From NCBI GenBank assembly GCA_019828595.1, contig JAHQRK010000008.1, positions 1,860,001 to 1,924,000 on the forward strand: a stretch of 64,000 nucleotides of DNA. The letters are read 5' to 3'. This stretch comes from Aphanomyces cochlioides (taxonomy: Eukaryota > Oomycota > Saprolegniomycetes > Saprolegniales > Verrucalvaceae). This document shows, piece by piece, positions 10,311-58,998 of the stretch. The notes under the pieces were generated by a model. That model saw only the letters and a list, made by a program, of their open reading frames with translations. It ran no database searches and was not told where the DNA came from. The position numbers were made by a program, and so were the translations under genes. How positions within the stretch are numbered: position 1 is the stretch's first letter; each line of letters starts with the position of its first letter.

Positions 10311-10324
10311 GCTCCTATGGCTCA
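10311..10324 (+). repeat. tRNA-Met 14-nt half-site
   Basis: gctcctatggctca equals nt 1-14 of the tRNA. Here it is wedged between the 5' end of the old remnant and the 3' end of the family C LINE, so the C element inserted into the tRNA regenerated by the earlier one. Confidence 0.9.
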
Positions 10325-10334
10325 GTGTACAATC

Positions 10335-10359
10335 GCGTATATTAAATTTAATTATACGC
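10335..10359 (-). other. 3'-terminal hairpin, family C
   Basis: GCGTATA and TATACGC form a perfect 7-bp stem around an AT-rich, itself nearly palindromic centre, 10 nt from the element 3' end. It occupies the same place as the hairpins of families A and B but is unrelated in sequence, which suggests a structure read by the reverse transcriptase. Confidence 0.6.
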
Positions 10360-10611
10360 TAAATAGTAATGACCGTCATTAATCACTCTTGAGTGAATAA
10401 TAATGGTGCTTGTGAGATTTAAACTCAAGAAGTTTTACCTCTTGAAACTTGATTTCTGTTGTATCAGTTGATACAGTGCAATGTTGACACTTGACACGTC
10501 GAATCTTGGACTTGGGTGAGGGTCATCATGTTTCGTGACAAGGTGACTGATCTTGGGTGGTGTAGACATGGGACAGAAGTGTCTGGTCTTCGTCATCAGA
10601 TGGCTGTGGAA

Positions 10612-10730
10612 TAATCTTGGACGGGGCCATCATCTGGAGAACTCCCAAATGTTGGCTTGACTAATCTTGGACGGGACCAGTGCCATAGGAAATATCCACA
10701 TGTTGGTTGGACTCATCTTGGACGGAGCAG
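10612..10730 (-). repeat. Degenerate 50-51 bp tandem repeats in 3' UTR, family C
   Basis: The motif t(a/c)atcttggacgg recurs at 10612, 10662 and 10713, with further shared words (atgttgg before each). A looser relative, atcttggac, appears near 10503. These are LINE 3' UTR minisatellite-type repeats. Confidence 0.6.
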
Positions 10731-12216
10731 ATTTCTTGTCTCAATGGCGCGTCATTGTCGGAACATAGGTGCGCTGTGTCCAAATGTTTCTTCGGCCACA
10801 TCTTGTATCTTGATTTTTGTATAGGGCGTCTTGGAGTCCACTCGTTGGGTAGTGTGAAATTCTTGAGGATGAGATTGGAGAACTTCCTTGTGGATTTAAT
10901 GGCTGCGGCTTCATTTTCCGATTTGCCTGCTGCCCAACACACCGTCAGGCTGCCTCTCCGTCCGTTGCCTCGCTTTGGTTGCTTGCCTCTCGTTTGCGTT
11001 CCTTCTCGTCCGTGGTTTGGCCTTGCTTGTCCGACGTTGTTCCCTCTGCATTGAAGCTCGTTGTTGCCGTCGCTGTTGTCTCTGCCGTGTGGCTGCTCGC
11101 TTGTCTCTGTTTTGGCCGTGTCGCTGTCGCTTTCGTCTCTACGCTCATGGTGCTTTGGCTGCTTCCTCTCCATGTTCGTGGTGCTGCTGCTACGATGGGC
11201 GTTTCCAAGGAAGAATTTCAAGGCGTTGAAGACATCAAGGCGTTCAAGACTTGGTTTTTTGAAGCTATGGCTCCGAATGGCGACCATCCTGTGTACTTCG
11301 CTCGTCGGAGGAAGGGGTGGTAGAAGGAGTCTGAACTGCCAGCGATGGGGGCCTTCCTGGAGGGCTCTCTACACATATGGACGTCTTCTCGCAATGACCC
11401 CGGTCTGAGGGTAGCGGTTGACTTGCTTCGACATTTTTTGGCCTCAATTCATGGAGCCGGACAGTTCTGCGGAAGTGTATGTTGGCTGACTCCCTTCATG
11501 CATGGATGCAGGGCTAAGAACCTGGTCAGTTCGTGTCCGTGGAAGTGGATTGAGTGCTTTGGGTTTGCCTCTTTTTGGGTTTGTCTCTTTATGGCTTTAT
11601 GCCTTTCGGCCTTTGGCCTTGATTTTGGGTGTCCCTTTCTTTTTACTCCTTTGTTGGAGCCCCCGGGGGTAGCGGTCAAGTCAAGACTTCGTCGGAAAAG
11701 GAGGTTTGGCGACTTTGGCTTTGATGACTTGTTTGTGTAGGGTGGCGAGCGCGCGCGATATTTGCTTTTTGTGTTTGTTGGCGATCAAGTTTGGCGATTT
11801 TCGACTTCAAGAAAGCGCGAAGAAACGTGGGGGTTAGCACACGAGCGCAGCTATGGGCGGCCCGTTCACCAACTTTCGGTAAGTTTCTTCTTTGTCTTTG
11901 TGGCTTGACTTTTGCTTAGTTTGCTTTTGGTTTGCGACGAAACCTTCTGAAAATCGCTAAGTCTTCAAGAAATTTCTCGCCGATTTCACGCGAAGCGCTG
12001 CCCAAATTCTTAATTTTGTAATTCAGCCTTGAATTACCAATTTTTCTTGTGCTTTTTGGTTTGATTTCAAGTTTGCCTTGGCTGCAAGTAAGTTGGGCAG
12101 CTAGAATCACTTCTAACTTGAAAATTTAGTTTGAATTTGCATTGGATCGATCAAGTTCAAATCCACTCTTGAAATTTGGAGCGGCTTTATGTTGGCTGAA
12201 GAAGGCGAGTCGATTT
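10731..12216 (-). other. Long 3' region of family C, no recognised ORF
   Basis: About 1.5 kb between the ORF2 stop and the repeats. A 208-codon frame (10661-11287, ATG at 11287) encodes a hydrophilic, low-complexity sequence without chromodomain or peptidase-like motifs. A short very basic frame lies at 11449-11679. Neither resembles ORF3 of family A. It may be decayed coding sequence or UTR. Confidence 0.4.
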
Positions 12217-15200
12217 TTATGAAGTTGATCCTCCGCGTCCATGACTTGCAAACGCCTTGGTATGTCGTTTGAAATATTCCTTGTTTTGAGTTTGTCGTTT
12301 TAGGACAACAAGAATGCGGTTGACGGTTTGGAGCGTCTGCTCATCGTTATTTTGACGAAGCCATCGGCGGACGTTTGAACTCCAAAACGTGAACGCGATA
12401 TCATTGAGAGCAGGTATGTATGGTGTTGGAGCATTGTCGAATTTGACTCGGTTGCGGTGTGTCCATAGGAGATGAAGGATGGTGCACATCAACATGAACC
12501 ATAACTGGTGCAACAAGTCCTTGTGCGGAGACCAACGCCTTGCGACTTGAAAGGAGTCAAGATTTTCAATCCAATCCCAACTGAAGCGTAATCCGAATGG
12601 ACCCCAAGCTTCTCTGTGAGGTAACCAAACACTGCGGATCCGTCGGCAATCCATGAATAAATGCTGCTTAGTCTCGCGTTCGTAGCACTGGGGATAGCAG
12701 CATTGTACAGCATTGGGGTGAGCAGATTCCATGAATCGAAACTTGTCGCTAACGGGAAGAATGTCATAGATAGCACGAAACCAAACGTCCGCCTGAACTG
12801 GTGTAACAATCTTGGACAATAGCTTGACGTATCTCGACAGGTAAACGCTGATCGTTTTCTTGTCTGGTCTCATTGATGTTTCTAGGGGATGCTTCTTCGT
12901 CATTGGCGGTGCATGGAAGGTTATCTGCTTCAGTATCTTGGCTGTCCAGGAACAGAAAGGTATGTCTTGTTCATTGTGTCGAAAGACAATGAAGCTTTGT
13001 TGTTCAGGACTACGTGGAACTGCACCTGCAACCGGCACGTCAGCCTGAGTCCAAACATCGGTTGCCATTGAGGTCAAGAGCTTGTAGAAGTGTTGGAAAC
13101 TCGTTGGAATTGGTGAGTCATCGACAAAGTCGTCTTCGAGTGCGGTCATCATGGCTTTGAATTCGTCGTAGGTTGGCCATGTCCTTGTTGGAGTCAAGAA
13201 ATCTTGCAAGCTTTGAAAGCCACTGCGGGCCAAGTGACGATACCAATCGCGATGATTTTTCAACTTGATCGCCAAGGAAGACGTCCCCTCTCGACCGAAC
13301 ACTTGGAACAGTGGGTGCGACGACAACCAAATCGGCATTTGGATCATCTGATGAATTGTAGGTTCATGTGGCGTTTTGGCAGTCATTGGAATTTTTGCCC
13401 AATGCTTCCAAATGTCTTGCCACAATGGCGACAGCAAATTGCGTTGGACAAGCTTGTTGTTGAGCGATGGATGGTATACCAAGAAATCCCACCGATCATT
13501 ACGAGAATATGGGCTCATACATCGGCGCAATCGATCTGAAGGTAAAATTGCCCACAATTGCGATGTATCATGCTCCTCTTTGACTAGAAGCTGGAGCCGT
13601 ATGAGTCGTTGTTTGCGAATAGTTGAGGCTATGTGAGGCACTTTCAAGCCAATTTTTGGGTCGTGCACAAGGCCACCAGCAGCAAGAGCCAGATATTTTT
13701 CTGTCGTTTGAGTCCTGCGACTGAGAACAAATTTGTTCACCATGGATTGCCACTGCTGAATGGTACTGTCTTGAATTGGTAAAACCATGGTGTAATGCCA
13801 CAACTGTGATAGGAGCATGGTGTTTACGAGTAATCTTCGACCTTTGATCGTTCTCGCTCGACACGCCCAAGTGGTGAAGGATTTGTAGAACTTGTCGGTG
13901 ATGGTTTTGATTTGTAGGTTTGGATCCAAGTTATGACCTAGGTGGATGCCCAGATACTTGACTGGAATTCCACTGGGAACCATATTCAATCTCGGGTGGT
14001 GGACAACGGGCTGTTTGCTGTCGAGAGTGAGTACTTTGCTTTTGCTCCTGTTTAACTCGGCGCCAGAGTGACGACAAAACTTGTCGACAAGTTGCAATTG
14101 CGCTTCAAGGTCTACCAGAGATCCAGAAACAAGGGTTGTGTCGTCTGCGAACAAGAGGACCGAAGCGATCCCTCCTTCTGCGTTGGAAAAGGCGAAGCCG
14201 CGCTCCGGGTGGTTGCGTAACAATTGTGCAAGTGGCTCGATCGTCATCACAAACAACATTGAAGACAAAGGGTCACCTTGCTTGACTCCCCGCGTTGGAT
14301 GGAACGGCTGTGTAAGTTCTCCATTGATGTTCAAACTTACTTTGGTGTCTTTGTAGAGGAGTTTGATCCAGTTAATAAAGTTGTCTCCCACATTAAACTT
14401 TTGGAGTACTTGATACATGAAGTTGTGGTTCACGCGGTCATAAGCTTTCTCGAAATCCAAGAACATGGCGTAAGCTTCTTCACTGAATGTTGTGCAATAA
14501 TGCTGAAGATCTTGAAGGAAAATGACGTGATCATGAATACGTCTGCCTTTGACGAATCCATTTTGCTCTGGTTGGATGATACTTGGCAATACATGCGATA
14601 GCCTGTAGGCCAAAGCTCTCGACAAGACCTTCACCTCCACTGGAATCAATGCAATGGGACGATAGTTGGCGGGATTCCGACGTCGCCGCCCTTGAAGAGC
14701 AATGAGATTGCTGACCATCGCTGGAAGTCAAGTAAGCTTCCCTTGCGACTTCGATCTTGAAACACAATTCGTAGAATTTCGCCGAAGAGAAGTGAGTCCA
14801 CTTGGTAAAAACAAGCTGGGAATCCATCGATGCCAGGCGACTTGTGTGGATTCATTGTTCTTATGGATTGAGCGAGTTCCGCCGCTGTCATTGGTATATC
14901 TAGCGAAGCGGACTCGTCCTCTGACAGTTCGCGTTCCAGGACTTCAAGGAAGGAGTTGAGCTCTTCAGTGTTTCTGTTTGACACGACGTCATCGTCAGTC
15001 ATGACTGCAGACCAATGGTTATTGAATGCTTGGTGGATTTCTTCAGGTATGTCTGTGATGTTCCCTTCACTGTCATAACATTCCACGATAGGAACTGCGT
15101 AACGACTTGATTGGGGCTTTCGAAAGAAGTGAGATGTAGCCGCTTCGTTGTGCGTGGCATGGAAGTCAAAGCTGAGGTCGGCGCGACGTTGTTTTATCTC

Positions 15201-16367
15201 TTGTTTACGTTCTTCATAGTTGGCTTTTGCGACCTCGAGCGCGTCATCGTTGATCCGTCGTTGTCGATGTTTCAATTGAGCTTGAAGCCACTGAATTTGA
15301 GCCGCTTGAAGTTCATTGCGCTGGTCGGTTATCAATCGAGCATGATACTTCTGCAGGAACTTCTTCGTCCGATGTTTCCAACGGGACCACAGTGATCCTG
15401 GCTCCTGAGATGCTCTCAACTCATTGAGGAGTGCATTTTTGATGGCTTCTCTTACTTCTGAGATGGTCATCAATTCTTTTGGTAATTTCCAATAGCTCTT
15501 CTGGCGCTTAATTTGGATAGGCTGAAGCTCCACGAAGTGCCAAAGGTGGTCGGTGTCTGCTGTGGGTTCGAAGTATTCCGTTGTACGAACCCAGCTAGAT
15601 AAGATTGGATCCAGCAGAATGTAATCCAGCCGATTGAGTCTTTGAGGTGACGAATAAACTCTTCGTGTAGGATTGTAGCTGCGCCAAGCGTCCACGACAT
15701 TGAGCTCTTGGATCCAAGCAAAGCAAGATTGTCGGTGAGTGTGATGATTTGAAACTTCTGACCCCCTGGAATCAAGGTCTCTGTCCATTGGAAGGTTGAA
15801 GTCACCCAAGACGACATGCCTCGAGTTGAGCGGAAAATTTCGCGGCAAGGAATTGAAGAACGCGTCACGTTCATTGTCTTGCACTGGCGCGTATATATTG
15901 TGGTAATAAATCGGATCATCACCCCACATAGAGCTAACCACCATGTAGCGATCCTCGATGTCGTATTGAGTTTCGTGATGAAGATGTTCGAAACCCGGCG
16001 CTGTGGCTTGGAAGACCATCGCAACACCACCTGAGCGGTATTGCTCGACTTGGTCGGAATTTTGTCGATGGTCGTTTGAAGCAAGGAAGTACTGGTCTTT
16101 GCCAAGAGCATGCGTCAAGTGGAATTGGAACTTGTCGAATTGCACGATACCAGCAAATTTGGTCTCTTGTAAGCCGACAATGTTGTACCTCGAGATCATG
16201 GAATTTACAAGTAAGTTTCCACTATCTCTCGATACACCATTGATATTGGCTGTGGCGATAGATAACTTGGATAGCGAAGAGTTTGGAAAGGATGGTTGCG
16301 TTGAGTTTGTTGGTGGATTGTTTGGGTATGTTTGTGGTTGACCTTGCACAACAGCCGCGAGGACTTT
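12217..16367 (-). pseudogene. ORF2 of family C (EN-RT-CCHC), one frameshift
   Basis: AP-type endonuclease then reverse transcriptase. EN motifs: TANINGV, GLQETKF, NIYAPV, LGDFNLP, NRLDYILLD and DTDHLWHF. RT motifs: NYRPIALIPVEV, NGFVKGRRIHDHV, FLDFEKAYDRVNH, GVKQGDPLSS, FADDTTLV and YLGIHLG. Near the C-terminus is CX3CX7HX4C (CCYPQCYERETKQHLFMDC). The frame breaks between the two halves at about 14674-14678, where one base is missing in GGAA just before the codons for NPANYRP. No ATG precedes the EN catalytic Asn; the frame emerges from the ORF1 stop at 16366-16368 in the +1 frame. With one base restored the protein would be about 1380 residues. Confidence 0.88.
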
Positions 16368-16368
16368 A
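16352..16368 (-). promoter_or_regulatory. ORF1 stop / ORF2 entry, family C
   Basis: The sense sequence TAAAGTCCTCGCGGCTG combines the ORF1 stop with the first ORF2 codons in the +1 frame. It matches family A at 15 of 17 positions, though the flanks have diverged. See the entry at 38804-38820. Confidence 0.55.
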
Positions 16369-19054
16369 GTACAAGAGGATGTGTCGGCGCTGCAGACGGG
16401 TATTGTCCTGGCCGACGAATGCCGTTGACGAGTTGTTTGTAGGTTGATATGCGTCCAGGCTGAGTTGCCAGATCCACGAAGTCATTTCCGTTTTGCACAA
16501 GTAGTGCAATTCCTCTGCGAATTGTTGTCCAAACGGCGATTTCAACAGCGCCCAGAGCGTATTCGATGCAAGCATCCTTACATGCTTGGTTGGGAGCCAC
16601 TCAACGGGTTGGCGTGTGAGGTAAAGTAGCCAAATGTCATTCTTGAAGACTAACGGTGCTTGGACAGAGAGCCATAACTCGAATGCTGAGAGGGCGTCTT
16701 CGACGTGCTCAGATGAAAAGGCTGGATGGTTTGCGGCGTCCTTGAAGAACTCGGGAGAGTTTGAGATTTCTTCAAGTCGTGACCACCGTGGGTGTTCCTG
16801 GAACATAAATTTGAACCCGTTGGTGAATGAATCCACTAAAGGAAGTTGAGTCGCGGCAATCCATCGATGCCAGGTATGCATTCGGACGACTTTGGAGTAT
16901 TCATGGTACGAATTGATAGCGAGTTTGGTGAGCACGACGTTCATGCTTTGAGGTTGCGTGTGGATTATCTTCCACAAAGAGTCCACATTGCACCGTCGGA
17001 TCGAATCGACTACATCAAGTTCTGTTCCTGAGTAGTCTGTGGTTGCGATGACTTGAGTGTGTTGCTCGAAGGAGGTTCCGTCTTCAGCACTTTGTTGCAG
17101 GACATTCATGAACTCTTCCATGGTAAGGTTGTCTGGATGCCAGTCGAGTTTGTTGCTAACGACGTGTTGCTTCTTGACGTAGGCAGACTTCATGGCCGCT
17201 ACGTCGGTGGGGAGTTTGTTGACTTTTGGTATGTACACTCGAGTTGAAACATCTTGATGTATTTCAAGTGTGCGTGTGCTGGCCTCGATTTGATTGAGGA
17301 CATCGAAGAAGTTGTCGGATGCCCACGACTTGACAGTCGGCGATGACTGCTGAACTGCCGTTCTCTTCTTGCGTCGTGGTGCTTCAAATCCGTCTTCTTC
17401 GCCGGTCTGACTTGTGTTTCTCTTGGTAGATTTGGCATCGACTTCCATCTCTTCTCCCTTATCAGCGTTGCGGCCATCAAGGGAGGAGGTGCTGTCGTTC
17501 GTTTGTTGATTGGGATCATTATTGGATTCCTCGACTTCCATTTCCTCGGCTTGTTCCTCCTGCTGAGGTTCTTCCGTTTGGTTGGAGCCTTATTGCAACT
17601 CCTCGACTTCCATTTCCTCGCCTTGTTCCTCCTGCTGAGGCTTAGCTGCTTCGCGGGGTGGCTGGTCGTCGGTCTTTGGACGCTTGGGTTGTTGTTGCGA
17701 TTCTGATTCTTCTTCCTTGTGGGGACTTGACGGCTGTGAAGCCATAGACTCCACGAGTTGGTCAAGATCCAAGCAATGAGGAGAACGCGCGCCCGTACGT
17801 TGGCTTGACTTTTCGTAGTCTTTGACGAAGACATTGTAGGTTACTCCGTCCATGCGCAATTGATCGGTGGCGTGTCCGTTAACAATGAGTTGATTAGGAG
17901 CGGTTGACTCCAAGAAGTAAACCCTCCACACATTCGACTGGCACGTGATATTGGGTAAATGTTGACGGTACGCTTGAAAGACTGGTTTTGTCTTGAGTCG
18001 CTTCAATAGGCGAAACAGTTTGTCCGTATCAAAGTTGAAACGGATACCAACAATATCCATGAAGTAAAGTGCATCCATTGGGTCTTTTGGCGCTTTTGAT
18101 CCTCCCGAGAAGTGACGCGGCGTCTTGTTGGTTGTGGCTGTCGAGAATGGGTACGACTTGCCATAGATGGAGATCTCTTGACCTTCCAATTCAGAGCGAA
18201 CGAATGGCGACGTGATAGACACCACGATATCACCATCGCGTGCCTTGTTGAGTTGAACAAACTCGAGCAAGAGGTGAGCCCAAGAAGCCTGGGCGTTCTC
18301 CTTGAAGATTGCGGCAATGAGTTTCTCATTGGAGAACTCGCGGTCTTTGAAAGCGTCGCCCGTTATGATCCACACTGTGGCGGTAGCTGTTTTTGGTTTC
18401 GAAGGTGTGGCGTCTGAAATGACTTGTAGGACTTCATCCTCGTCAGCTTCTTCGTTGCGAGCAAGTTGCATCAACTTGTCGAGATACTCGGTCGTCGGGC
18501 GGGTCAAGACGGTCTTCACCCGCTCCGTAGTAGGTTTCCCTACCCCTTTGCGTAACAAATCCGCATAGGTCAATTTTTGAGGTGCTGGTTGCACGTGGCG
18601 GAGTTCCTTCGGGGTCCGAGAGGTCGACATGGAGTCGAGTGCCAGGTGCGTTGTTCGAAGGAGTTGGTGGTGATGTTTCTTCATTAGGTGGCGAGTCATT
18701 TGAGCCAGGAGCGCTCATTGCGGCTTCAGCAGCGCGAGCGAGCGGCGCATCGTCTCGGTTGTGAGACTCGGCGGTTGGCTCGGGACTTGGAACGTTTCGA
18801 GCGTTCGAGTCGGTGGAAGGTTCCAGTGATTCACGACACTCGTTTGGAGGCTGCGACAAGTGATCAGCATCCTCACGAGAGTCCAAAGAGGTGCTCGCGA
18901 CGAGCAGTGGTTCGGTCATCGGCGCATCGACAAGAGGTGCAAAGGACGAGGTTTCATCGTGGTGGTTGTTTTCATTAGGCATGCGACCATAAGAGTCTTC
19001 AAAGGCGCGAGCGCTGGGAGCATTGGCGGTAGCTGACATGGCGGTGGACGACAT
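16366..19054 (-). pseudogene. ORF1 of family C, one frameshift and one nonsense codon
   Basis: LINE ORF1 product, presumed RNA-binding. It starts at ATG 19054 (MSSTAMSATANAP) with a low-complexity acidic N-terminus. A frame change occurs at the T5 run 18574-18578, where one extra base fits. An in-frame TAA follows at 17592-17590 between two acidic Q/E-rich modules (QQEEQGEEMEVEE and QQEEQAEEMEVEE), which are duplicated. The middle part (FFDTDK-like region with NVWRVYFLES, YNVFVKDYEKSS) resembles an RRM-like fold, by analogy only. No CCHC knuckle is seen. It ends at TAA 16366-16368, overlapping the ORF2 entry. Confidence 0.8.
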
Positions 19055-19136
19055 ACTTCACTTCACTTGGGAGGCGGGAGGGGTACCTTACTTGAACTGA
19101 CTACTGATTTGAGTGGATGACGGAAAAAGTAAAAGT

Positions 19137-19209
19137 GCTCCTATGGCTCAGTTGGTAGAGCGTCAGTCTCATAATCTGAAGGTCGCCAGTTCGATCCTGG
19201 CTGGGAGCA
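19137..19209 (+). tRNA. tRNA-Met: tRNA-Met(CAU), elongator
   Basis: A 73-nt gene without intron or encoded CCA. Acceptor stem 1-7/66-72 (GCTCCTA/TGGGAGC), D-stem GCTC/GAGC, anticodon loop CTCATAA (anticodon CAT), T-stem GCCAG/CTGGC with loop TTCGATC, discriminator A. The anticodon stem closes with a T31-T39 mismatch. G1-C72 and a normal T-loop mark it as elongator, not initiator. The A box is TGGCTCAGTTGG and the B box GGTCGCCAGTTCGATCC-like. It abuts the 5' end of the family C LINE, so its 5' flank is LINE sequence. Confidence 0.96.
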
Positions 19210-19223
19210 GCCTCTTTCATCCC

Positions 19224-20189: not shown

Positions 20190-20262
20190 GCTCCTATGGC
20201 TCAGTTGGTAGAGCGTCAGTCTCATAATCTGAAGGTCGCCAGTTCGATTCTGGCTGGGAGCA
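20190..20262 (+). tRNA. tRNA-Met: tRNA-Met(CAU), T-loop variant
   Basis: Identical to the first copy except C60 to T in the T loop (ttcgatT), which does not affect any stem. Confidence 0.95.
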
Positions 20263-21242
20263 GCCTCTTTCATCCCTTTTTCTTGCCGCACTTGAACCGA
20301 CATTCTCACAAAATCAAGCACACTACCATCGACACACAACAAGTATCACTCTGTCCCCTCGTCGTCCAAATAGCACCACCAGTCAACTAACACACACATT
20401 CCATTTGCCACACAAGGCCAGACGCATCGAAATGTTGTACCAACACACTACTCAATATACCTGCACCGACATATGCGCAAGTCTGTGAACGCGGCCAAAA
20501 ACATCGCTCGTTCAGTCCTCCTGAGATCTCGTCTTTGCATGCACTCATGCCACTTTGTGTCGTGACAACAAGAACACTACTAAACACCGCGGTCCCAATC
20601 ACTGATCACATGTATTACCTCGTTAGACGCAGAGGCTTAATATTGAATCCCCACGTTGCTTGATAAACGAAAGGTTGACAATACGACAGGAAAAACTCAC
20701 GAACGTCTCACTCTTAGCTCTCAAAAGCAGTTCAATAGTGCCAGTGATTTCGATAGTAGTGTCTACAGTCGAAATGAACCAGGGATCGTAGAGTCTCCAT
20801 ATTGCGAATACTTTTACACAAATGAATGCCGCTGTGGCTACAGTGGTAAAGTGTCAATGGGTTTGTTTTGAATGGAATGAGAAGTGTGTTTACGCAAGGA
20901 CTCGATGTGTTTGTGCGCATCCTTCCAGCAAGCATACATCAAGAAAAGTGTAGCGTCGGTCACCGGGGTAAACGCCATGCATTTGTATATGTTTCTAAGG
21001 TTCAAGAATACATGAGAAAGGATCCGTCGATGAGTTCCAGCATTTTTAGTCGTTGGTGGCATGTATGAAGTCTTGTAGACGTCAGTATCTCTATTTTTGA
21101 GGTGGTTTCAAGTGGAAGAAATGTTTGAATTTTTGGTAAGGCGAAAGATGGAGTGCGAGTAGTTTGAGACGAGAGTGGGGTATGAATAGGAAGGTGTTTG
21201 AATGGTGGATTTAGAATTTGAAGTGTCTAATCAAGGCATGCC

Positions 21243-21315
21243 GCTCCTATGGCTCAGTTGGTAGAGCGTCAGTCTCATAATCTGAAGGTCGCCAGTTCGA
21301 TCCTGGCTGGGAGCA
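21243..21315 (+). tRNA. tRNA-Met: tRNA-Met(CAU)
   Basis: Reference sequence; 5' flank is native spacer (aaggcatgcc). Confidence 0.96.
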
Positions 21316-48023: not shown

Positions 48024-50481
48024 GGGAAGCGATCGTTGTGAGATCCGCTAGGTCGCCGTGAATTAAAGTAGGTTCGCTTGGGTGAAACATGACTTGATTG
48101 TGGAGAGTGATATCCAAATCGTTGCTTTCGTGTAGTTGAAGGATTTTTGTCATGATGTGACACATCGATTCTCCGTCGCCAGTGTACATGAATTCCATTC
48201 TGTTCCATATGTGGAGGCCAAGGTCGGTGTACATCAGGAGTGACATGAGCGTTTCGGAGGATAGACTGCGTTTACCAAGGCGAGAGGGTAACGCTGTCAC
48301 TGGACTTTTTGTTGAGGCCAAAATTGCCGCATCGCTATTGAAATATAGTGGAGCATGAACTGCCATCAATACTTCTGCAATGGCCAGCACTTCTTCGACT
48401 TCAACTCTGTTGAGGACGATGTCATCATCGGTGATGATTGCCTCGATGAGTGGGAGGTTGTTGACCATCTTCTGGTCACTGAACACCGAGATCACGTGGT
48501 CGTGAGTGATTGGAGTGCCGAATGTTGCCTCGTAGAGCTGACCAAAAGATTTTGTGCCACCACCAGACGCTCTTAGCCAACGATTAAGCAGTCGAAGACG
48601 AACAAAGTATTCGAAGCTGTCACGATTGGAGACAAAAATTTGGTGCAGTTGCAGTCCAAATTCGATTGGCGCACGTTCTAGATGGATGCAGATCGTGTCA
48701 ACACGCCCGTCCGTAATCAATTTCAATAAGTTGAAGGAATCGTGCGCTAACGCTTCCTTAACTTGGGCCGGGATATGTTGTGGTGCGTTTTGAGCCTTGG
48801 TGTCAAGGTCGTTGAGCTCGGCAAGTATGGCATCGAGAGACTTCTCAAACCTTTGGATTGAGCCCTCGTGGGGTTTGATCCCGCTAATGAACTCTTCAGC
48901 GGCAACGTGCACCTTGTCACCAGATTTGAGTGTCAGCTTTGGAACAATTACTTTGACAGTGGTGTTGCCAACTGTCGTTTCGTGTTCCTCGGGCTCAACA
49001 TTAGCGCGTTCGTCCAGAGCCGCAAACATGTTCGGGGAGATCCAAGGACGATCAGGAGCTGGGATTGAGCCAGCGGAGATTGGGGTTTTCTTTCTTTTGC
49101 CTGTAGTTTGAACTTCAGTCCATTCCTTGTTGCTGTCTCGGGTCGTTTTCTGCCGTTTGGCAGTGGATGTCGAGACAGCGGCGTCTCCCCGTGGGCGGTG
49201 AGGGGTTGCGTGAAGTCCATGTTGGGTGGCGATTACATCGAGGTCAAGGCGCGCGAGCTTCTTGTCACGGTAAAACCATCCTTGACCAAACACGCGGAGG
49301 CACCGACCCTTGAAAATGAATTCTTCAATTGATCGACCGTCATTGTGCATAGATTCGGGTATAGCTGTCCCTTCAAAATACAAGCGATAACGAGAGCTAG
49401 CCAAGCCAGTCGTCGAGGAAACTGTGGAGTATGAGCCCCACAAAAAGCGCGGCTCAAGCTTTGACATGATGCTGAACATGAGACGTTCTTCATCCTGTCC
49501 TTGGAGACCAGATGGGATATCGATGAAATATCCATCAAGTATATGGGGCTCTGTCATGACAAATCTCTGAGAGCTGCCATCCTTTGCCACTTGGATCTTG
49601 AGAGAGACTCCACGCAGCTTTTTAAGAGCATCTTCAGAGGCTATGCCCCACTTGAGAAGACGATTGGAGACATCTTTCTCGCACTTGATGACATCGACAA
49701 ATGCATCGTCCAAATCAAGCGCTTGGTTGTCAAACAATAGAGATGTCATTGCCTTGGAGATGTCGATGTATTTGGTGTATTGGCCAGTGGACATTTGTAG
49801 CCAGCCAACAACATCTCTGGGGGAATGTTTTTGGATGGGCAAAGTGTCGTCAAACGTGAGAGATCCTGTCGCGCGTTTTTGCAACAAGGACGCCAGCTCG
49901 GCCATAGTTGGTCGATAATGGCCGACGTCACTGTTCCGCTGAGCCTTGGCAGATTTAGCTCTCTGCTTGGCTTGGAATTCCCACACGCATTCGTTTGGCT
50001 TTTTGGTCGAGGTGTTCGACTCGGGTGGTATTGGCACGGAGCGTGTTGTAGCAGGAGGCGAGGCATCGATTTGAGCTTCAGGCTCCATTTCCACATCAAC
50101 ATTGGTGTCGCGAATCGATTGGTCTTCAGAGCGCGGCTCCAGCTCAGTGGCTTGAGTAATCGGTGGGGTATGTGGTTGGTTGTTGTTGGAGATATCCTCT
50201 ATGTCTTCATCAGGCATCGGAGAAACATTATCCTTGTTGACAGTTTTGTCGCTGGTACGAGCGCTTGGTAATGGCACGCGACCACCGAGTGTAGCAAGAC
50301 GTATGGGCGGTTGAGCAGCAGGCGGAGTTTTGTCGATGATTGAGTCAGGTTCATCGTCATCATCATCGTCAACAATCACCTCCATGATACTAGAAGCGTC
50401 CGAGGTATTGCGAAAGGGAGAGGCAGAAAAAGCTGAGGGCTTGTGTGCATGAGCACGGCTGGAAGAGCGGGTAGTCGCCAT
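48016..50481 (-). CDS. ORF1 protein, family A (second full-length copy)
   Basis: 821 residues from ATG 50481; the translation matches the ORF1 of the intact copy. The stop overlaps the ORF2 entry at 48002-48018. Confidence 0.88.
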   Translation of the reverse strand: MATTRSSSRAHAHKPSAFSASPFRNTSDASSIMEVIVDDDDDDEPDSIIDKTPPAAQPPIRLATLGGRVPLPSARTSDKTVNKDNVSPMPDEDIEDISNNNQPHTPPITQATELEPRSEDQSIRDTNVDVEMEPEAQIDASPPATTRSVPIPPESNTSTKKPNECVWEFQAKQRAKSAKAQRNSDVGHYRPTMAELASLLQKRATGSLTFDDTLPIQKHSPRDVVGWLQMSTGQYTKYIDISKAMTSLLFDNQALDLDDAFVDVIKCEKDVSNRLLKWGIASEDALKKLRGVSLKIQVAKDGSSQRFVMTEPHILDGYFIDIPSGLQGQDEERLMFSIMSKLEPRFLWGSYSTVSSTTGLASSRYRLYFEGTAIPESMHNDGRSIEEFIFKGRCLRVFGQGWFYRDKKLARLDLDVIATQHGLHATPHRPRGDAAVSTSTAKRQKTTRDSNKEWTEVQTTGKRKKTPISAGSIPAPDRPWISPNMFAALDERANVEPEEHETTVGNTTVKVIVPKLTLKSGDKVHVAAEEFISGIKPHEGSIQRFEKSLDAILAELNDLDTKAQNAPQHIPAQVKEALAHDSFNLLKLITDGRVDTICIHLERAPIEFGLQLHQIFVSNRDSFEYFVRLRLLNRWLRASGGGTKSFGQLYEATFGTPITHDHVISVFSDQKMVNNLPLIEAIITDDDIVLNRVEVEEVLAIAEVLMAVHAPLYFNSDAAILASTKSPVTALPSRLGKRSLSSETLMSLLMYTDLGLHIWNRMEFMYTGDGESMCHIMTKILQLHESNDLDITLHNQVMFHPSEPTLIHGDLADLTTIASRG

Positions 50482-50532
50482 GTTGTCAGTTTTGGACAGT
50501 GGTACTGCGGGGTAGCTGGCAAATTGGAAACT

Positions 50533-50605
50533 GCTCCTATGGCTCAGTTGGTAGAGCGTCAGTCTCATAATCTGAAGGTCGCCAGTTCGATCCTGGCTGG
50601 GAGCA
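50533..50605 (+). tRNA. tRNA-Met: tRNA-Met(CAU)
   Basis: Reference sequence, flush with the 5' end of the second full-length family A LINE. Confidence 0.96.
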
Positions 50606-51585: not shown

Positions 51586-51599
51586 GCTCCTATGGCTCA
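51586..51599 (+). repeat. tRNA-Met 14-nt half-site
   Basis: Left target-site copy of the full-length family B LINE. With the preceding c the duplication is 15 bp here (cgctcctatggctca on both sides). Confidence 0.93.
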
Positions 51600-51616
51600 C
51601 TGCAATGGGGAGGTAT

Positions 51617-51643
51617 ATTAATAGACTTTCAATATCTACTAAT
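51617..51643 (-). other. 3'-terminal hairpin, family B
   Basis: ATTAATAGA / TCTACTAAT: 8 of 9 positions are Watson-Crick, with one A-C mismatch (plus strand) that reads as G-U in the RNA. The loop is 9 nt and the stem starts 17 nt from the 3' end. The stem position matches family A but the bases differ, which looks like covariation. Confidence 0.6.
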
Positions 51644-51756
51644 ACTAATATTGCCTACTAACGGCTCATCCCACTTCCAAATGCTTCAGCAGATTTTCTA
51701 CTTTGGGCTTTGGAGTACAGCGATTTTTGACTTGTTGAATAAATACTTGGGGCTTG

Positions 51757-54700
51757 TTAATTTGGGGCTGAAGGTTGGAGCGCGAGCAAAGTCGGGTACT
51801 TGGCTACCAGTGGGCGATAGACAGGTTGTCTATGCAAAGTATTGATTGCTGAAATTGCTTCCACTCGTTGAGGGCTGTCAACTTCTTGGAGGCGAAGCCA
51901 TCTGCGGATCGATGCATGCCATCGGATGAAGCTGACTTCTTGCCAAATTTCTGGCGGAGGCGGCTCCTTCGATTCGAACTTGGCGGCGTTGTGCGTTGTC
52001 CAAATATAGTGAAGGTTGGAAGCACACAGAAGAGCCCAGAGCACAAACAGTATGTCTTGAAGCTGGCTACCGCGTTCGTTGACTTGAAAGCGGTCGATGT
52101 TGGTGATGGCAGTCCAATCGAAATTGACACCGAAGCATCGCCAAGCGGTCGCGTGAAAACGCCAAAGGGGATACACGCGAGAGCAGGTGTGGAAGGCGTG
52201 GTGTTGGTTCTCCGGTGCGTCGCAATTGGTATAGACACAGCAAATTACGTCTGGCTGCTGAGGTTGCAAGTAGAACAAGCGCGAGTTGACAGGCAGCATG
52301 TTGAACAACAGTCGAAACCAAACGTCGCCATGGAGGGGAGGCGGCCAACGGCATGTTTTGCGGATGAGTCGCACGTAGGTCGCAATATCTTGTTGCTCGA
52401 CGCGGGACGATGTCGCCACTGGGTGCGGTTTTCCATCCGAAGGGGCGTGATGCGCCAAACGTGATACGAGTCGCTTGGGCCAACGCTCGAAGGATAGCAA
52501 TTGATCTTTGAAAAGTGCCTTGAAAGGGTGACTTGTTGTATCGATATCGGTCAAAGCAGTTCCAGTTCGAACGCCAGACGTGCGGAGGACTTGGTCGAAT
52601 ATCTTGGTGAGGTGGCTATAAACTTGACCAGCACTTCGGGTGCTGCAAATCCCATCGCGCCGTTCGCTTGTAACGTCACTTGTGCCGCACGGTTGTTGGA
52701 TGACAGTCGATCAATAAACGCAGCTCTTGTAGGCCATGTCCCTTGCCGTGTCAAGAAGTCTTTGAGGCAGTGGAAACCGTTTTGAGACGCATGTCTACAC
52801 CATCGACGACACAGAGCAGTCTTCACGACATTTGATGTAGCACCCGCAGGACCAACTTGCAGAGCGGGGTAGGATGTCAGCCACACGGGGAGGTTCAAAA
52901 GTTCTTCGAGGCTTGGTGGCGAAGCGGTTCGCTTGGCCATAGGTGTGGCGGCCCATTGATGCCAAATGTCGTGCCAAAGAGGATGCAGCTCCCACAAAAA
53001 CAACCACTTGGAGCTGTGGTTGGGGAAGTACGTGAGAAAGTCGAACGGGTGGGTGTCGCGATACAGCTTGTTCATGACACGGGAAAATTGTCTCTTGACA
53101 AGCAACTTCCATGGGGCAAATGTGTTGGGTGAATTGGGCTGCATCAAGAGTTGGAGCCGCAGCAGTCGCTGAGTCCGAAGCTTCGAAGCCACATGCGGAA
53201 TACCGAGGCCGAGTTTTTGATCGAACTGCCACTTGCGGCAAATAGTTGAGCGATGATGGTCGGTGATTTGCGTCTTCCGACCAAGGATGTACTTGTTGAC
53301 CATTCTTTGCCAAACGGCAACCATCGTTGGAGGCACATACACTGCAGCCGTGACATGCCATAACAACGACAACAACATGGTCGATACGATGAGTTTGCGG
53401 CCTTGGATGGTTCGCGCACGACTTCCCCACGTTTGAAACGCAGCCAGAAACTTGTCGTTCAGTTGCTGGACTTGAAAATCGCGCGGCAGTCGGTGGCCAA
53501 AGAGAATACCAAGGTATTTCACTGGCTTCTCGCTCGGCAAGACGTTCAAGAGGCCACCATCGTCGATGTCTTCGATATCGAGATTGTTGTTGAGCGCCAA
53601 AGTCATGCACTTGGCAACGTTGAGACGAGCTCCAGACACAGAGCAAAAGTCTTCGACAATTGCCATTTGCTCGACCGCCGCTTGGAGGGATGACGAGAGT
53701 AGAGTCGTGTCGTCGGCAAAGTAGATGCTCGTCAGTGAGTCTCCATTTGGAAGGGGAATACCAAAATCAGGAGATCCGCGTAGCATTTCGCCGAGTGGCT
53801 CGAGGTAAAGTACGAAGAGCATGCACGATAGGGGGCAACCTTGCTTGACTCCGCGGGTAGGCCGTATGGTAGGGCCAAGACCGTCGTTGAAAATGATCTG
53901 GACCAGAGGCGTATTGTAAAGCAACTGAACCCAAGACACAAATGTGGGACCGATGTTCATCTCCTTGAGTACGTCGAAGAGAAAGCCTTGGTCAACCATA
54001 TCGTATGCCTTGGAAAAGTCGAGAAACGTCGCGTAGTAGTCGTGGTCTTCATTGGTACAGAAAGTCTGCAATGCTTGTACCAGCATCACGTGGTCGTGCA
54101 AGCGACGGCCAGGGACAAAACCAGCTTGGCTTTGGGTGAGCGAGGTATGGGGCAACTTGTGCAAGACGGTAGGCCAGCGCCCGCGATAGAATCTTGACTT
54201 CAACCGACATGAGAGTAATCGGCCGATAGTTGCCAGGGTCGCCTCTGTCTCCAGCCTTGAACAAGAGCGCCACTGCACTTCGGCGTTGTTGGAGCAGGAG
54301 GTGACCGTGATGGGTGAGTTGGTAGTTGAACACCTTGAGCAGGATTTGGGCGAATACGTCCGGGGAGACTTGAAAGAAAGCTGCAGGCCAGCCGTCTGAA
54401 CCAGGAGACTTGTTCGGGTTCATAGACTTGAGCGCGCCGCACAGGTCTTCCGCCGTGAGAGGACTTTCCAGAGCGTCGCGCTGTTCTTGAGTGAGACGTC
54501 GAGTAATGGCTCGAATGATAGCTCGGCGACGGGCCCGATTCAACGGTGGTTGGTCTCTTGGAGTGACCATGATGTTTTTCCAATGAGACGTAAAACCAGC
54601 CTTGACTTCAGACGGGTCAGTCGACGTTGCACCGTTGATTGTCACGGACGAGAGCGGCACTTTGATCCCCTTGGGTCGACGAAAAAAGTGACTGGTACCT

Positions 54701-55911
54701 CGCTCGTTGACGTTGGCGTGAAAGTCGAATTGCTGATCCAGGTTGAACTGTCGGTACTCGCTGCGGGCAGTGTCAAGGGCTTGACGGGCGGTATTAACAA
54801 TGGATGTCTCAACGAGTCCCATGTCGAATGCTCGGCGGGAAGTAAGCCACTTCATCTTGAGGCTGTTGAGTGTGTACTTCATCGAGTCAATGTACTGGCG
54901 ATGACTGACTTGGAGACGCTTCTTCATTCTCTTCAACCAGCCGTACCACTTTGCGCCAAAGTTTTGAGTGTCGTCTGCGCGCATCTCGTCCAAAAGTTGA
55001 TTGGCTTCGGCCTTGATCGCTGCGACTACTTGAGGGTTCTTTAAGAGCTCACGGGGGAGGCGCCAGTAACTTCGGTCGGGAGCTCGCTGCTCGCAGGAGA
55101 GGACCACTTTGTGTTCCATGTGGTCGCCTGCAAAACTGCTTGGGGAATAGCTTGAACGTGCGTACGTTTGAGCGACGATATCTTGGTCCACAAACAGGTA
55201 GTCGAGGCGGTTGCTTCGACCAGGGCCGCTGTAAACGCGCTCGTTGGGGTGGTGCATCCTCCACGCATCGGTAACACCAAGTGCTGAAAGCCAGGCAATG
55301 CATTCCGCCTTACCAGCGTTGTGGTCTTGGCGAGGTCGAGTCGCGTCCAGATGCTCCTCCAGGGGTAAGTTGAAATCGCCTCCGACAAAGTGAATGCTGT
55401 CGTCTTCAAAGTCGCGAGGCAGGTCGTCGAAAAACGGTGCTCGAGAGTGAGCGATAACCGGGGCATAGACGTTGTGAAAGTACACAGGAACGCCGTCCCA
55501 CTGAGTTCGAACAACCATGTATCTTCCAGGTCGGTCATGGGTGGTCAAGTGTTGCAGGTCGAGGAATCCAGGCATGGATCCATGGAAATACGATGCCACA
55601 CCGCAGCGCCGATTGTTGAGTGAGTCGACGCGATCAGTGCGGAGATCGTTGGTGAAAAGCTTGTATTTGCCAACGCCTACTTCGTTGTTGAGGTGGAGTT
55701 GGAAGGTTTCGAGATGTTTGATGTTATTGATTTTGGTTTCTTGAAAGAAAACGGCTTGGGTCGGAATTTGGAGTCGCCGCGCCACAAGATGTCCGTTGTC
55801 TTTCAGCCCATTGAGGTTGGCAGTGGTCAGTTCGAGTATGGGGAACTTGGTGAAGAGACCGGCCGCGACCACCTTAGCCACGGAACGCGACAGACGTTGC
55901 GTTCGCAACAT
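51757..55911 (-). pseudogene. ORF2 of family B (EN-RT-CCHC), two frameshifts
   Basis: EN motifs TTANLNGL, FFQETKI, HNVYAPV, GGDFNLP, NRLDYLFVD and AGDHMEH; RT motifs NYRPITLMSVEV, QAGFVPGRRLHDHV, FLDFSKAYDMVD, GVKQGCPLSC, YFADDTTLL and KYLGILFG; finger CX4CX7HX4C (CVYTNCDAPENQHHAFHTC). Breaks: one extra base at the T3 run 54131-54133 (before QAGFVPG) and one missing base at G3 52638-52640. Unlike A and C, an ATG exists at 55911, ten codons before the conserved VAKVVAAG, overlapping the end of ORF1 by 38 nt. With breaks repaired the length would resemble family A. Confidence 0.9.
55861..55876 (-). promoter_or_regulatory. ORF1 stop / ORF2 overlap, family B
   Basis: TAAGGTGGTCGCGGCC in sense: ORF1 TAA at 55876-55874 overlapping ORF2 in the +1 frame, as in families A and C. 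Confidence 0.55.
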
Positions 55912-58872
55912 CTCCCAGCATGAGTGTCTGAGTGTCGGGTTGGAACATCACTTGGTTGTCGAAGGTGGGGTCCAGGGAGCCAGCCTCATGGAATTCCAGG
56001 ATCGTGGTCAAGACGTATCGCGACTTCTCGTCTTCGCCGGCATACAACGTTTCCATGATATTCCAAATCAAGAGGCCGAAGCTCGTGTCAAGCAATATGG
56101 CAGATAGCGATATGCCCGACAAACAGCGGGAGCCCAAATGAGAAGCCAGTGCAGTGACCGGGTACTTGGTAGAGGCCACGATCGCAGCATCACTGTTGTA
56201 GTACGTTGGAGCATGAATGGACAAGAGAACTTCTGCCACAGCCAACACTTCTTCCAGGTCGCCGCGGTGGAGGGAAATCTCGTCGCCGTCAATGGTAGTA
56301 TCGATGAAGTCGATGTTCTTGAATAGCTCGATGTTGCTGAAGATGGCTTGAACGTGCTCGCGGGTCATACGCACACCCCACGTCAATGAGTACAGCTGGG
56401 AGAACGGTTTGTCTCCACCCAAGTCGCTCGAAGCCACCGATGGAGGAGGCGTTGTCTCACAAAGTACTCAAAGCACGCACGGTCTTCATCAAAAAGTCGG
56501 TGCAGTTGCAAGCCAAATTCAATCGGGGAACGCTCGAGATGGCTACACAGCATGTCGACGCGGCCGTCGTTGATGAGTTGGGCAAGGTTGAACGAGCTGT
56601 TGGTCACTGCATCTTCGACTTGGGTTGAGAGATGCAATGGAACTTTGGCTGTCTTGGTGTCGAGGTCTTGTAGTTCGGCGAGAATTTCGTCAAGAGACAT
56701 TTCTATGCGCTTGGGAACGCCATCTTGGATCTTGGTGCCGCCGACAAATTGACCGGACGTAGGGAGGTGGGGAGGGTCATCCGAGACGTCCAGCTTGGGT
56801 ACAATCGTTGAGATCTTGTAATCGCCAAACTGAGCAACGTGTTCCTCGGGGTTGACACACACACGTTCGTCGAGGGCTTCAAACATGTTGGGCGAAATCC
56901 AAGAGCGGCCATGCTCGGGGGAATCCACTTGCTGTTGCGTCTTCTTGCGCTTGCCTCTCGACGCCTTGACGCCAGTCCACTGCGGAGGGTTGGCTTGCGC
57001 AGTTTTCCGACGTTTTGGCGCCTTGGGAGTCGAAGAAGGCGGGTTGGTTGGGCTGGGAGCTGGCTTGTTCAATCCATATTGGCGGGACGTTGCATCAAGG
57101 TCCAAACGAACCAAGTTCTTGTCACGAAAATACCACCCTTGACCGTACACGCGGAGACAACGGCCCTTGAAAAGAATTTCTTCGACGAGACGGCCGTCGC
57201 GCTGTATGGTCGTTGGTACGGAGGTTCCTTCAAAGTAAAGGCGGTACCGAGAGCTCGCCATACCGCTTGAAGAGGAAACGTTGGGGTAGGAGCCCCACAG
57301 GAAGCGTGGCTCCAACTTGGTCATGACGTCGAAGATCAGGCGCTCTTCGTCTTGATCTTGAAGGCCTTGAGGGATGTCCATGAAAAATCCGCCGAGGACG
57401 TGCGGAACGTTCATCGTGAAGTGTTGGGACGAGCCATCTCGAGCGACTTGAATCTTAAACGCGATGCCTCGCAGCTTCGTCATCGCTTCGTGAGAGGCAA
57501 CACCCCACTTGAGCATGCGGTTCGGGATGTCCTTCTCGCATCTCACAATGTCAGCAATCGCAGTGTCGAGGCCGAGGGCTTGGTTGTCGAAAAGGATCGA
57601 TGCCATGGCAGCTGAAACATCGATGGTCTTCGTGTGTGCACCCGTGGGCATCTGCAACCAGCCGACGATGCCGCGCGCCGAGTGCTTCTGGATCGGGAGG
57701 GTGTCTTCAAACGTGAGGGTTCCAGCAGCACGCTTGCGAAGGAGGGGTTCGAGTTCCTCCATCGTGGGCTGGTAAGGAGCAACGTCCTTGGTCTTGATGG
57801 CCTTGGCAGACTGAGACCGCTGTTGCGCTTGGAAGGCCCATACGTCGTTGGGGGCCTGGCGGTTGTTGGGTTGGCCACGGCCAGGTGTCTGGGCTCCGCC
57901 AGATTGAGAAATGTTTTCCAAATGCGATCCGGGTGAAGCCTGAGACGATGGCTGGCGGACTGAGTGAGAGTCCGAGTCGTGCGTCAGACCAACACTCAAG
58001 CGTGCGTCAGAGGCTTGGTCTTGTCCGGACCCTGTCCCATGGTGGACAGAGTCACACGTTTGACCTTCACTCGCGTTGGACTTCGAGAAGCTTCCATGGG
58101 TGACTTGGTCTTGAGTATTCCCATGACCAACACTGGCCACAGGGTTGTTCGCGATTGTTCCAGATCTTGCCCGATGATTCTTCGAGAAGAGACCATCACT
58201 CATGGAGCGACTAGTCTCGATGGGATCTTGACCTGTCGCCAGAGTGGACTTGTCGCTCGGGGGATTCTTTGAGAAGGGACCTTCACTCAGGGATGGACTG
58301 TTCTCGAATCTTCCTTGACCTGTCGTCATGTTGACGTCGGTGCTTGAGCGAGTCTTCAAGAAGCCACTATCACTCGTCGAGAGAACATTCTCGAAAGGAA
58401 CAGAACCCAACGGAGTCTTGCCAGGCAAGCCACCATCACTCACGATGGACGTGGTTGATGGAGATTCTTCGGGCAAGGTCGTTGACGTCATGAGCACATC
58501 TTCCGAGGTTGGAACGCCGTCTTGCCAGGCTTCGTCGCAAGTGTCAGAGGTCGTTGGATCATTCGCGGGATCGCAAGCCTTCGTCGAGCGAGTCACAGGC
58601 AAGGGTTCAAAACGGCGCGGTTTCGAAGGGGTTGCACGTTGACGTGGAAACGGAACGCGCGTTGGAGTAGGGAGCGGATTCGTAGACGCGTCATGATGCG
58701 AAGCGTTGGAAGCATCGTCGACGTCCTCTTCCAACGACGACGCCATGTCGGTATCGCTTGGGGATGGGTCAGCAACGACGATGACGTCCATATCGCTGGG
58801 GCTGGACGCCGAGGGAGAGAACGCGGAGGAGCAAGATGGGGCACGAGGGTTGGTCGAGCGGGTAGCAACCAT
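55874..58872 (-). pseudogene. ORF1 of family B, one frame break
   Basis: Starts at ATG 58872 (MVATRSTNPRAP). The N-terminal half has repeated Ser/Gly-rich modules (FSKN recurs). The core parallels family A: VWAFQAQQRSQSAKAIKTKD, LTFEDTLPIQKHSARGIVGW, SSRYRLYFEG and KGRCLRVYGQGWYFRDKNLV. The frame changes near 56415-56437, between RWLRA and DLGGDKPFSQL; this break is not in a homopolymer. The final piece ends VAFRG then TAA. Confidence 0.87.
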
Positions 58873-58925
58873 ATTGTCAGATAGCGTAGAGTGGTACTGC
58901 GGGGTAGCTGGCAAATTGGAAACTC

Positions 58926-58998
58926 GCTCCTATGGCTCAGTTGGTAGAGCGTCAGTCTCATAATCTGAAGGTCGCCAGTTCGATCCTGGCTGGGAGCA
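58926..58998 (+). tRNA. tRNA-Met: tRNA-Met(CAU)
   Basis: Reference sequence, regenerated at the 5' end of the family B LINE. Confidence 0.96.

Follow-up and report, generated by a model that had tools for sequence, protein, structure and literature searches.

Long interspersed elements (LINEs) inside tRNA genes are already known from the group that uses a restriction-like endonuclease (RLE). Dewa, a target-specific LINE, belongs to the Tx1 group. It occupies the spacer of tRNA-Leu (PMC3706591), and NeSL-1_TV (tRNA-Pro), LIN15_SM (tRNA-Arg) and LIN25_SM (tRNA-Glu) are RLE-type LINEs specific for tRNA genes (PMC4640811). Dp_NLTR-A lies upstream of tRNAs at a distance of 2-6 bp (PMC5006619), Utopia occupies the U2 genes of oomycetes (PMC4640811), and Dada DNA transposons insert at tRNA nucleotides 8-13 (PMC8869645). 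Here we analyzed a 64,000-nt stretch of Aphanomyces cochlioides DNA (C78:1860001-1924000; hereafter the window), in which LINEs interrupt an array of tRNA-Met genes. At least three L1-type families (A, B and C) very probably insert at one position of the RNA polymerase III (Pol III) A box, T-R-G-C-T-C-A14 ^ G15, and rebuild the tRNA gene. What is new is this L1-type variant, which uses the A box of many tRNAs. A literature search turned up no LINE described as cutting the A box in many tRNAs and restoring the genes, a weak negative because most subscription journals lay outside its coverage. The original prediction, made from the window alone, had judged novelty against the Dictyostelium TRE elements. 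These do sit beside genes, but the prior art is broader and includes NeSL-1_TV, LIN15_SM, LIN25_SM, Dada and Dp_NLTR-A.

Element junctions in the tRNA-Met array

The window covers part of an array in which a 1053-bp unit carrying a single tRNA-Met(CAT) gene is repeated in tandem, and minus-strand elements interrupt the array. ARAGORN and Rfam each found 15 tRNA genes. At gathering scores, Rfam returned nothing beyond these 15 across the whole window, so no known ribozyme is present at the element 5′ ends. The wider array was parsed over 264 kb (C78:1840001-2104000) with up to 6 mismatches allowed per 59-nt tRNA body and up to 3 per 20 nt of element 3′ end; the genome searched comprised 76.2 Mb in 94 contigs. 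The three families are separable by their 3′ ends, which are gtgtacaatc in A, atgtcaatgg in B and ctgcaatgg in C. We counted 46 tRNA bodies (nt 15-73) in the 264 kb; the element 3′ ends number 42, of which 27 are B, 13 C and 2 A. Both ends lie inside the 264 kb for 41 elements, of which 19 are full length (one minus a few bases) and 22 are truncated.

All 42 element 3′ ends directly follow A14 of tRNA-Met, and all are antisense to the tRNA. The 14-mer before the element end is GCTCCTATGGCTCA in 36 cases, GCTCCTATTGCTCA in 3 and ACTCCTATGGCTCA in 3. Each of the 46 tRNA bodies has its 14-nt start, with one substitution in 13 (33 reference, 11 A7>T, 1 G9>T and 1 G1>A). Upstream of these starts lies array spacer in 28 and an element 5′ end in 18. 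The opposite-strand orientation was absent among the junctions and bodies parsed. Genome-wide, GCTCCTATGGCTCA occurs 136 times on the forward strand, never on the reverse strand and never in the reversed control; the 100 of the 136 matches that were listed are all on C78. These counts and controls rule out chance as the origin of the junction pattern. Within the window, the left junctions predicted at 10324/10325, 24415/24416, 29536/29537, 33202/33203, 42401/42402 and 51599/51600 are all exact and follow GCTCCTATGGCTCA. The right ends predicted at 10310, 19136, 29522, 30029, 41334, 50532 and 58925 are likewise exact and abut the first base of the tRNA sequence, and the antisense orientation holds for every element in the window.

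Target-primed reverse transcription, as generally understood, starts with a nick in the strand to which the element 3′ end becomes joined. Here that end is attached to A14 of the tRNA strand, which implies a first nick after A14 in this strand and a cut in the other strand 14-15 nt upstream. The element endonuclease (EN) would nick the tRNA sense strand after A14, and the freed 3′ end would prime reverse transcription of the element RNA from the RNA 3′ end. The cut in the other strand would fall 14-15 nt upstream, either at nt 1 of the mature tRNA or one base ahead of it. Fill-in would duplicate nt 1-14 and so leave a 14-nt stub on the left and, on the right, a complete tRNA gene that includes the two internal promoter boxes. 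Since the distance from the 5′ end to A14 is 14 nt in the targeted tRNAs, a fixed stagger of 14-15 nt would rebuild any of them. The rebuilt tRNA would be the next target, which would produce stacks with the oldest element on the left and the newest beside the tRNA. First-strand priming after A14 inside the A box had been predicted for site-specific LINEs, and the position of all 42 ends agrees with it; the nick itself is inferred from these junctions.

The predicted 14-bp duplication does reach tRNA nt 1 and the right-hand gene is whole, but its length seems, from the sequences, to be 14 nt in some copies and 15 in others. Base -1 is equal on the left and right in 15 of 20 distinct truncated copies, compared with 8 expected from base composition (p 0.0017). 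Some full-length copies carry extra 5′ bases that repeat the tRNA start: GC at 1979968, GCTC at 1997313 and TCCTCT beside tRNA-Asn (L058). Other extra bases do not match the tRNA start, namely G before a T-starting tRNA-Lys (L051) and ATA before a tRNA-Asn start (L079). It is possible that the element RNA begins a few bases within the upstream tRNA.

From left to right, the window is organized as follows; elements are on the minus strand, and target-site copies (by sequence match) and rebuilt tRNA-Met genes (by ARAGORN and Rfam) are on the plus strand. A fragment at 8000-10310, whose left limit is approximate, has interrupted frames and a likeness to B and C limited to the first ~70 nt; it seems to be a decayed 5′ piece of a further family at the left edge of the array. 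Its 5′ end abuts the target copy at 10311-10324 (GCTCCTATGGCTCA). The family A element that follows (10325-19136, 8812 bp) has an EN piece at 14649-16481 and a reverse transcriptase (RT) piece at 12220-14727, with a rebuilt tRNA at its 5′ end (19137-19209). Four 1053-bp units (20190-24401; tRNAs at 20190, 21243, 22296 and 23349) precede a two-element stack. This stack consists of a target copy (24402-24415), a 5′-truncated family B element of 5107 bp (24416-29522), a second target copy separating the two elements (29523-29536), a 5′-truncated family C element of 493 bp (29537-30029) and the rebuilt tRNA that closes it (30030-30102). The target copy at 33189-33202 is followed by a full-length family B element of 8132 bp (33203-41334), with open reading frame (ORF) 1 at 38821-41334, ORF2 (EN, RT, zf-RVT) at 34713-38849 and a further open frame at 33284-35245, and then by a rebuilt tRNA (41335-41407). 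A second full-length family B element of 8131 bp (42402-50532), possibly an unequal-exchange copy of the first, lies between a target copy (42388-42401) and a rebuilt tRNA (50533-50605). The last target copy (51586-51599) precedes a full-length family C element of 7326 bp with interrupted frames (51600-58925). Here base -1 is common to both sides and a 15-nt duplication is possible. Beyond its rebuilt tRNA (58926-58998) the 1053-bp units continue.

Eleven tRNA-Met units with A7>T (GCTCCTTTGGCTCA) occupy C78:1919979-1931566, that is, from window position 59979 to its end and beyond, and no element precedes any of them. The 18 element groups of the 264 kb sit among the other units. The A7>T units could reflect recent amplification or could be poorer targets. 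At the left edge of the array, window positions 1-7800 hold a trypsin-like gene (1073-1969, plus strand, E 1.3e-40) and a PAN-domain gene (2173-3180, minus strand). Large tandem tRNA arrays are also described for Phytophthora infestans (PMC9584435), and such arrays may be what permits elements of this kind.

Range and recognition of tRNA targets

To the tRNA-Met array can be added tRNA genes of several other kinds. Allowing up to 3 mismatches, we found 203 B and 225 C 3′ ends genome-wide. GCTCA directly precedes all 203 B ends and 224 of the 225 C ends within 3 mismatches, and the match is exact in the first 100 listed of each. Outside the 264 kb, 33 rows were read, which gave 31 distinct B or C junctions (two rows, L067 and L068, repeat L036 and L042); some of the 14-mers in these rows are unmatched to a tRNA body. 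TRGCTCA precedes all 31 junctions, and each 14-mer differs from that of tRNA-Met. ARAGORN named the target, at the right-hand end or in the same array, as tRNA-Asn, Lys-TTT, Lys-CTT, Phe(GAA), Ala(AGC), Trp(CCA) or Thr(CGT). With Met these make eight kinds for seven amino acids, the two Lys kinds being told apart by their loops. An intron-bearing Tyr gene and a second Ala-like gene, cut by the fetched window (L080), were read by eye only. For tRNA-Trp we read a stub with its element and intact genes that share the same left flank; the right-hand end itself lies outside the sequence read. Wherever a right-hand end was read, the sequence there is whole from nt 1. Lone motif-bearing genes on their contig are also struck, as in the case of Lys on C1 and on C12.

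Insertions in these other arrays rule out targeting of tRNA-Met alone. The observation made from the window is confirmed and the mechanism outlined from it appears right, while the target was drawn too narrowly: tRNA-Met is the target in this array, and genome-wide it is the A box of eight ARAGORN-named kinds plus Tyr as read by eye. The original prediction is therefore partly supported.

Family A has 79 3′ ends genome-wide. We sampled 41 junctions in 40 windows, several of which are array copies of one another. Of these junctions, 39 are A-box-like, and 33 of the 39 follow TRGCTCA exactly. One family A copy of 160 bp at C8:1192062 lies at a non-tRNA site with 16 nt (TGGAGATAGAGACTCC) common to both sides, and by its sequence it is a real off-target insertion with a stagger of similar size. 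The shared flank of 16 nt at this non-tRNA site suggests that the enzyme itself sets a stagger of about this length. At ACTTCTGTAGCTTA, family A ends occur in a near-identical flank on three contigs (C1:4342714, C25:458325 and C67:85977), and here the target is perhaps a tRNA-like dispersed repeat.

TRGCTCAG occurs at 5567 sites in the genome, and recognition of tRNA genes probably takes more than this 8-mer. Both a longer reading of the D-arm and tethering by Pol III factors fit. If the DNA is recognized directly, the EN or a DNA-binding part of the protein would read about 16 bp, roughly TRGCTCAGNNGGTNGAGC, which is the conserved D-arm region of the targeted tRNAs. In all targets with the body read, TRGCTCAG is followed, after 1-2 bases, by GG(T/G)AGAGC, and the motif TRGCTCAGTNGGTNGAGC occurs 438 times genome-wide. 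The 2002-bp Thr-Val unit on C2 points the same way. Its Thr gene is struck repeatedly, whereas the three tRNA-Val genes, which have a different A box (GTCGATGTCGTCTAGTGG start), are preceded by ordinary spacer with no element. On the other side, the spacing to GGTAGAGC varies by one base among targets (Met compared with Thr and Trp), and the off-target family A sites lack the D-arm motif. We place direct recognition just short of an even chance.

Alternatively, the Pol III machinery itself may guide the element as in Dictyostelium TRE5-A, with an element protein bound to TFIIIB or TFIIIC and an EN that cuts loosely where it is held, that is, at A14. TRE5 ORF1 is reported to interact with TFIIIB (PMC5911963). 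There are 5567 TRGCTCAG sites, yet the 14-mer at each of the 31 distinct B and C junctions is found repeatedly in tRNA arrays or, where tRNA bodies were read, directly ahead of one, and the TRGCTCAG in the spacer of the single tRNA-Phe unit read is empty. However, TRE5 sites scatter 40-54 bp upstream of the gene (PMC5911963), and the 42 junctions here are exact to the base. Moreover, by the tracer reading given below, a terminal tRNA with a G9 mutation inside the A box took three more insertions. Guidance by Pol III factors is a serious though somewhat doubtful candidate.

Two readings of a copy on C15 were rejected. A 214-bp copy first taken as off-target and without duplication is actually 740 bp long and flanked on each side by GGGAAATTGGCTCA, and the right-hand flank starts a tRNA-like gene. 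This gene was also considered as tRNA-Arg, but its anticodon loop fits the Thr(CGT) gene of C2 and ARAGORN gave no call, and it is counted as tRNA-like only. Also on C15, at ~1.207 Mb (L036/L067) and ~1.146 Mb (L098), half of a tRNA-Val gene is joined to the beginning of a tRNA-like gene (GGGAAATTGGCTCA), which was then hit by a LINE. The two fusions share a similar left flank.

Stacks, array exchange and contrary observations

Within the 264 kb, 39 elements form 18 complete groups, each ending in a tRNA. Of these groups, 10 are single elements, 3 are pairs, 2 are triplets, and the other three contain four, five and eight elements. The remaining 3 elements belong to a group cut by the end of the stretch. 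Two stacks carry a mutational tracer. One is the stack of four, where G9>T marks the tRNA and all three target copies to the right of the leftmost, which is wild type. The other is the stack of eight, where G1>A marks the tRNA and the three target copies closest to it, after five wild-type copies. Confinement of the variant to the copies nearest the tRNA is as expected if each new element enters the rebuilt right-hand tRNA and copies its first 14 nt leftwards. Since the variant of the tRNA recurs in the target copies, the 14-mer is a true duplication of the target. The same stacks show that insertion tolerates a change at nt 1 or nt 9. Serial re-insertion at the rebuilt tRNA is supported, with the order given by the tracer in these two stacks, and the prediction that each insertion leaves a fresh, reusable target is borne out by their variant duplications.

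Because the left stub keeps TRGCTCA, stacks might instead grow by insertion into this 14-nt stub. In both informative stacks the tRNA mutation is present in the copies nearest the tRNA and absent from the leftmost, so entry at the stub would require independent matching changes, and we consider it very unlikely. That unequal exchange of one or a few inserted units, rather than repeated insertion at one site, gave rise to the arrays can practically be dismissed: although unit-plus-B blocks in the window are 99.7% identical and the 214-bp and 684-bp truncations recur twice each, there are 28 types by family and 5′ end, three families, several tRNA kinds on many contigs and variant duplications within stacks.

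Exchange has nevertheless contributed. The flanks of the B copies at 33203 and 42402 are common at 99.7% identity, so these copies are not independent and unequal exchange may have copied one of them. Truncated types of 214 bp and 684 bp were each found twice, and the two family A types differ by substitutions only. Counting the family together with the first 20 nt of the 5′ end, the 41 complete copies comprise 28 distinct types, which rules out amplification of a single event as the sole cause. If identical types are all assigned to exchange, 28 is probably near a floor for separate insertions.

Several observations weigh against the reading that the elements insert at one A-box position and always rebuild the gene. 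Some copies multiplied through array exchange rather than by insertion. Among the full-length copies, base -1 is common to both sides in just 8 of 19 and differs in 11. Six of the 41 family A junctions lie in variant A boxes: 3 in TAGCTTA (one repeated flank), 2 in TAGCGCA and 1 in TAGATCA. Two of the 41 are not A-box-like; one is the copy on C8, and for the other, on C19, the right side was looked for and not found. At 8 family A junctions at RGGGGRATAGCTCA (C4, C8 and C45), a pattern search, with one unoccupied site on C2 left unread, gave no intact right-hand tRNA. Among the C ends, 1 of 225 lacks GCTCA within 3 mismatches. ARAGORN gives no call for the tRNA-like target on C15 (L076), whose acceptor stem fails to fold. 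Finally, both tracer stacks end in tRNAs mutated at G1 or G9, so it is not proved that no gene is harmed.

Family A right-hand ends were also absent from 13 windows placed by guess; tRNA-Trp genes, intact, lay in two of these windows, and two more held other B or C junctions. Insertion of family members at unrelated sites had been named as grounds for abandoning the prediction. For B and C, 427 of 428 ends follow GCTCA; in family A, the 2 of 41 sampled junctions off the A box are such sites.

Relationship to known elements and significance

ORF2 contains an apurinic/apyrimidinic endonuclease (APE)-like domain, an RT and a zf-RVT-like end. The RT matched PF00078 with E 1.4e-32 (B), 1.6e-37 (A) and 1.7e-26 (C), as a non-LTR-type RT does. 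The APE-like EN of family A matched PF03372 above the cut-off (E 7.5e-12), and those of B (17.8 bits) and C (17.6 bits) were below the 24.5-bit cut-off when taken alone. The closest solved structure is human L1 ORF2p (E 8.3e-57 for a single B sequence). A profile of 20 relatives matched it over EN and RT with E 1.3e-109, and the GDFN, YAP and DH motifs, which we take to be catalytic motifs of the APE-like endonuclease, align. As in L1-type elements, 5′ truncation is variable (22 of 41 complete copies) and accompanied by a target-site duplication, here of 14/15 nt. Judged by these sequence features, the elements are L1-type LINEs with an APE-like endonuclease.

The elements resemble human L1 in having the APE-like EN, the RT and a C-terminal zf-RVT-like region in one ORF2. 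They differ from it in their exact site inside tRNA genes, in the absence of poly(A) at the 3′ junction and in the fixed place of the 14/15-nt duplication. With NeSL-1_TV, LIN15_SM and LIN25_SM they share the non-LTR type and specificity for tRNA genes, whereas those elements have another endonuclease class and one tRNA kind per family; the accessible part of their description in PMC4640811 does not mention gene rebuilding. In the elements here an APE-like domain lies upstream of the RT, and an RLE domain, sought via Pfam only, was not found. The dictyostelid TRE5, TRE3, NLTR-A and NLTR-B are also LINEs classed with L1 that adjoin and spare tRNA genes (PMC5006619, PMC5911963). In contrast to ours, they land beside the gene, and the portions of these sources that were available describe no A-box cut or 14-nt stub. 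None of the 42 3′ junctions here lies outside the tRNA coding sequence, all being inside the tRNA after nt 14. Dada shares exact A-box insertion (TAGCTC in some) and the use of several tRNAs (PMC3706591, PMC8869645). Dada elements, however, are DNA transposons with 6-7-bp duplications, and the tRNA genes are called disrupted in the accessible text of PMC8869645. The elements here encode RT and EN, gave no transposase match in the frames scanned and have duplications of 14/15 nt. Dewa and other Tx1-group elements are likewise target-specific LINEs at multicopy RNA loci, but the target named is a spacer and not the A box. Utopia (PMC4640811) is an oomycete LINE in small-RNA gene arrays which differs in its RLE type and U2 target.

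Between A and B the RT identity is 45.5%, and between B and C 67%. For B and C, dN is 0.29 and dS is not computable (saturated). Frames of more than 1300 codons, the size of ORF2, are open in 4 of 10 B, 4 of 7 C and 1 of 2 A full-length copies of the 264 kb. The open frames in every family, together with the dN of 0.29, suggest that the elements are functional and recent. Among named proteins, the closest come from Aphanomyces, Achlya, Thraustotheca and Globisporangium. A quick RT tree with 83 rows (oomycete and unnamed relatives plus six plant, fungal, algal and animal rows), with SH-aLRT support only and several long branches, placed A and B/C in a 38-row clade (support 98) with Aphanomyces and Thraustotheca proteins. 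An adjoining 29-row clade (91) holds Globisporangium, Plasmopara, Peronospora and Phytophthora. Because A and B use the same site, the simplest reading of this relationship is that their common ancestor used it, with convergence as the alternative. A scan of IMG/VR with two peptide patterns found no relative.

The 5′ untranslated region of family B is ~51 nt. After its RT, family B has a third long open frame (window 33284-35245, minus strand, 654 aa from stop to stop). Pfam gave no match in ORF1 and none in this third frame even at E 10; by eye the frame has a chromodomain-like and a cysteine-protease-like stretch, a likeness that is unsupported. The last 75 nt of A, B and C (window 10325, 33203 and 51600) contain a predicted hairpin near each 3′ end, which is possibly a recognition element for the RT.

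As a tentative wider reading, the A box could be a universal tRNA-gene address used by a whole oomycete clade of L1-type LINEs, with one base cut in any suitable tRNA, a stagger that matches the distance to mature nt 1 and the host gene always rebuilt. The head-to-head tRNA would then be the next target and perhaps a promoter region for the element. In connection with the promoter idea, some full-length copies begin with extra bases that match the opening 2, 4 or 6 nt of the tRNA.

R2 is being studied as a means of gene delivery to 28S targets. An APE-type enzyme able to insert into tRNA genes and leave them unbroken would be a useful contrast to R2. The elements also separate two questions about LINEs, the nick and the locus, since insertion is exact to the base in tRNAs and shows a similar stagger (16 nt shared) off target. 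The mutated target copies in stacks give an order of insertion without dating. For the genome that carries them, the ~500 element 3′ ends (79 A, 203 B and 225 C) represent site-exact insertion into essential RNA genes in which the gene is left whole and reusable.

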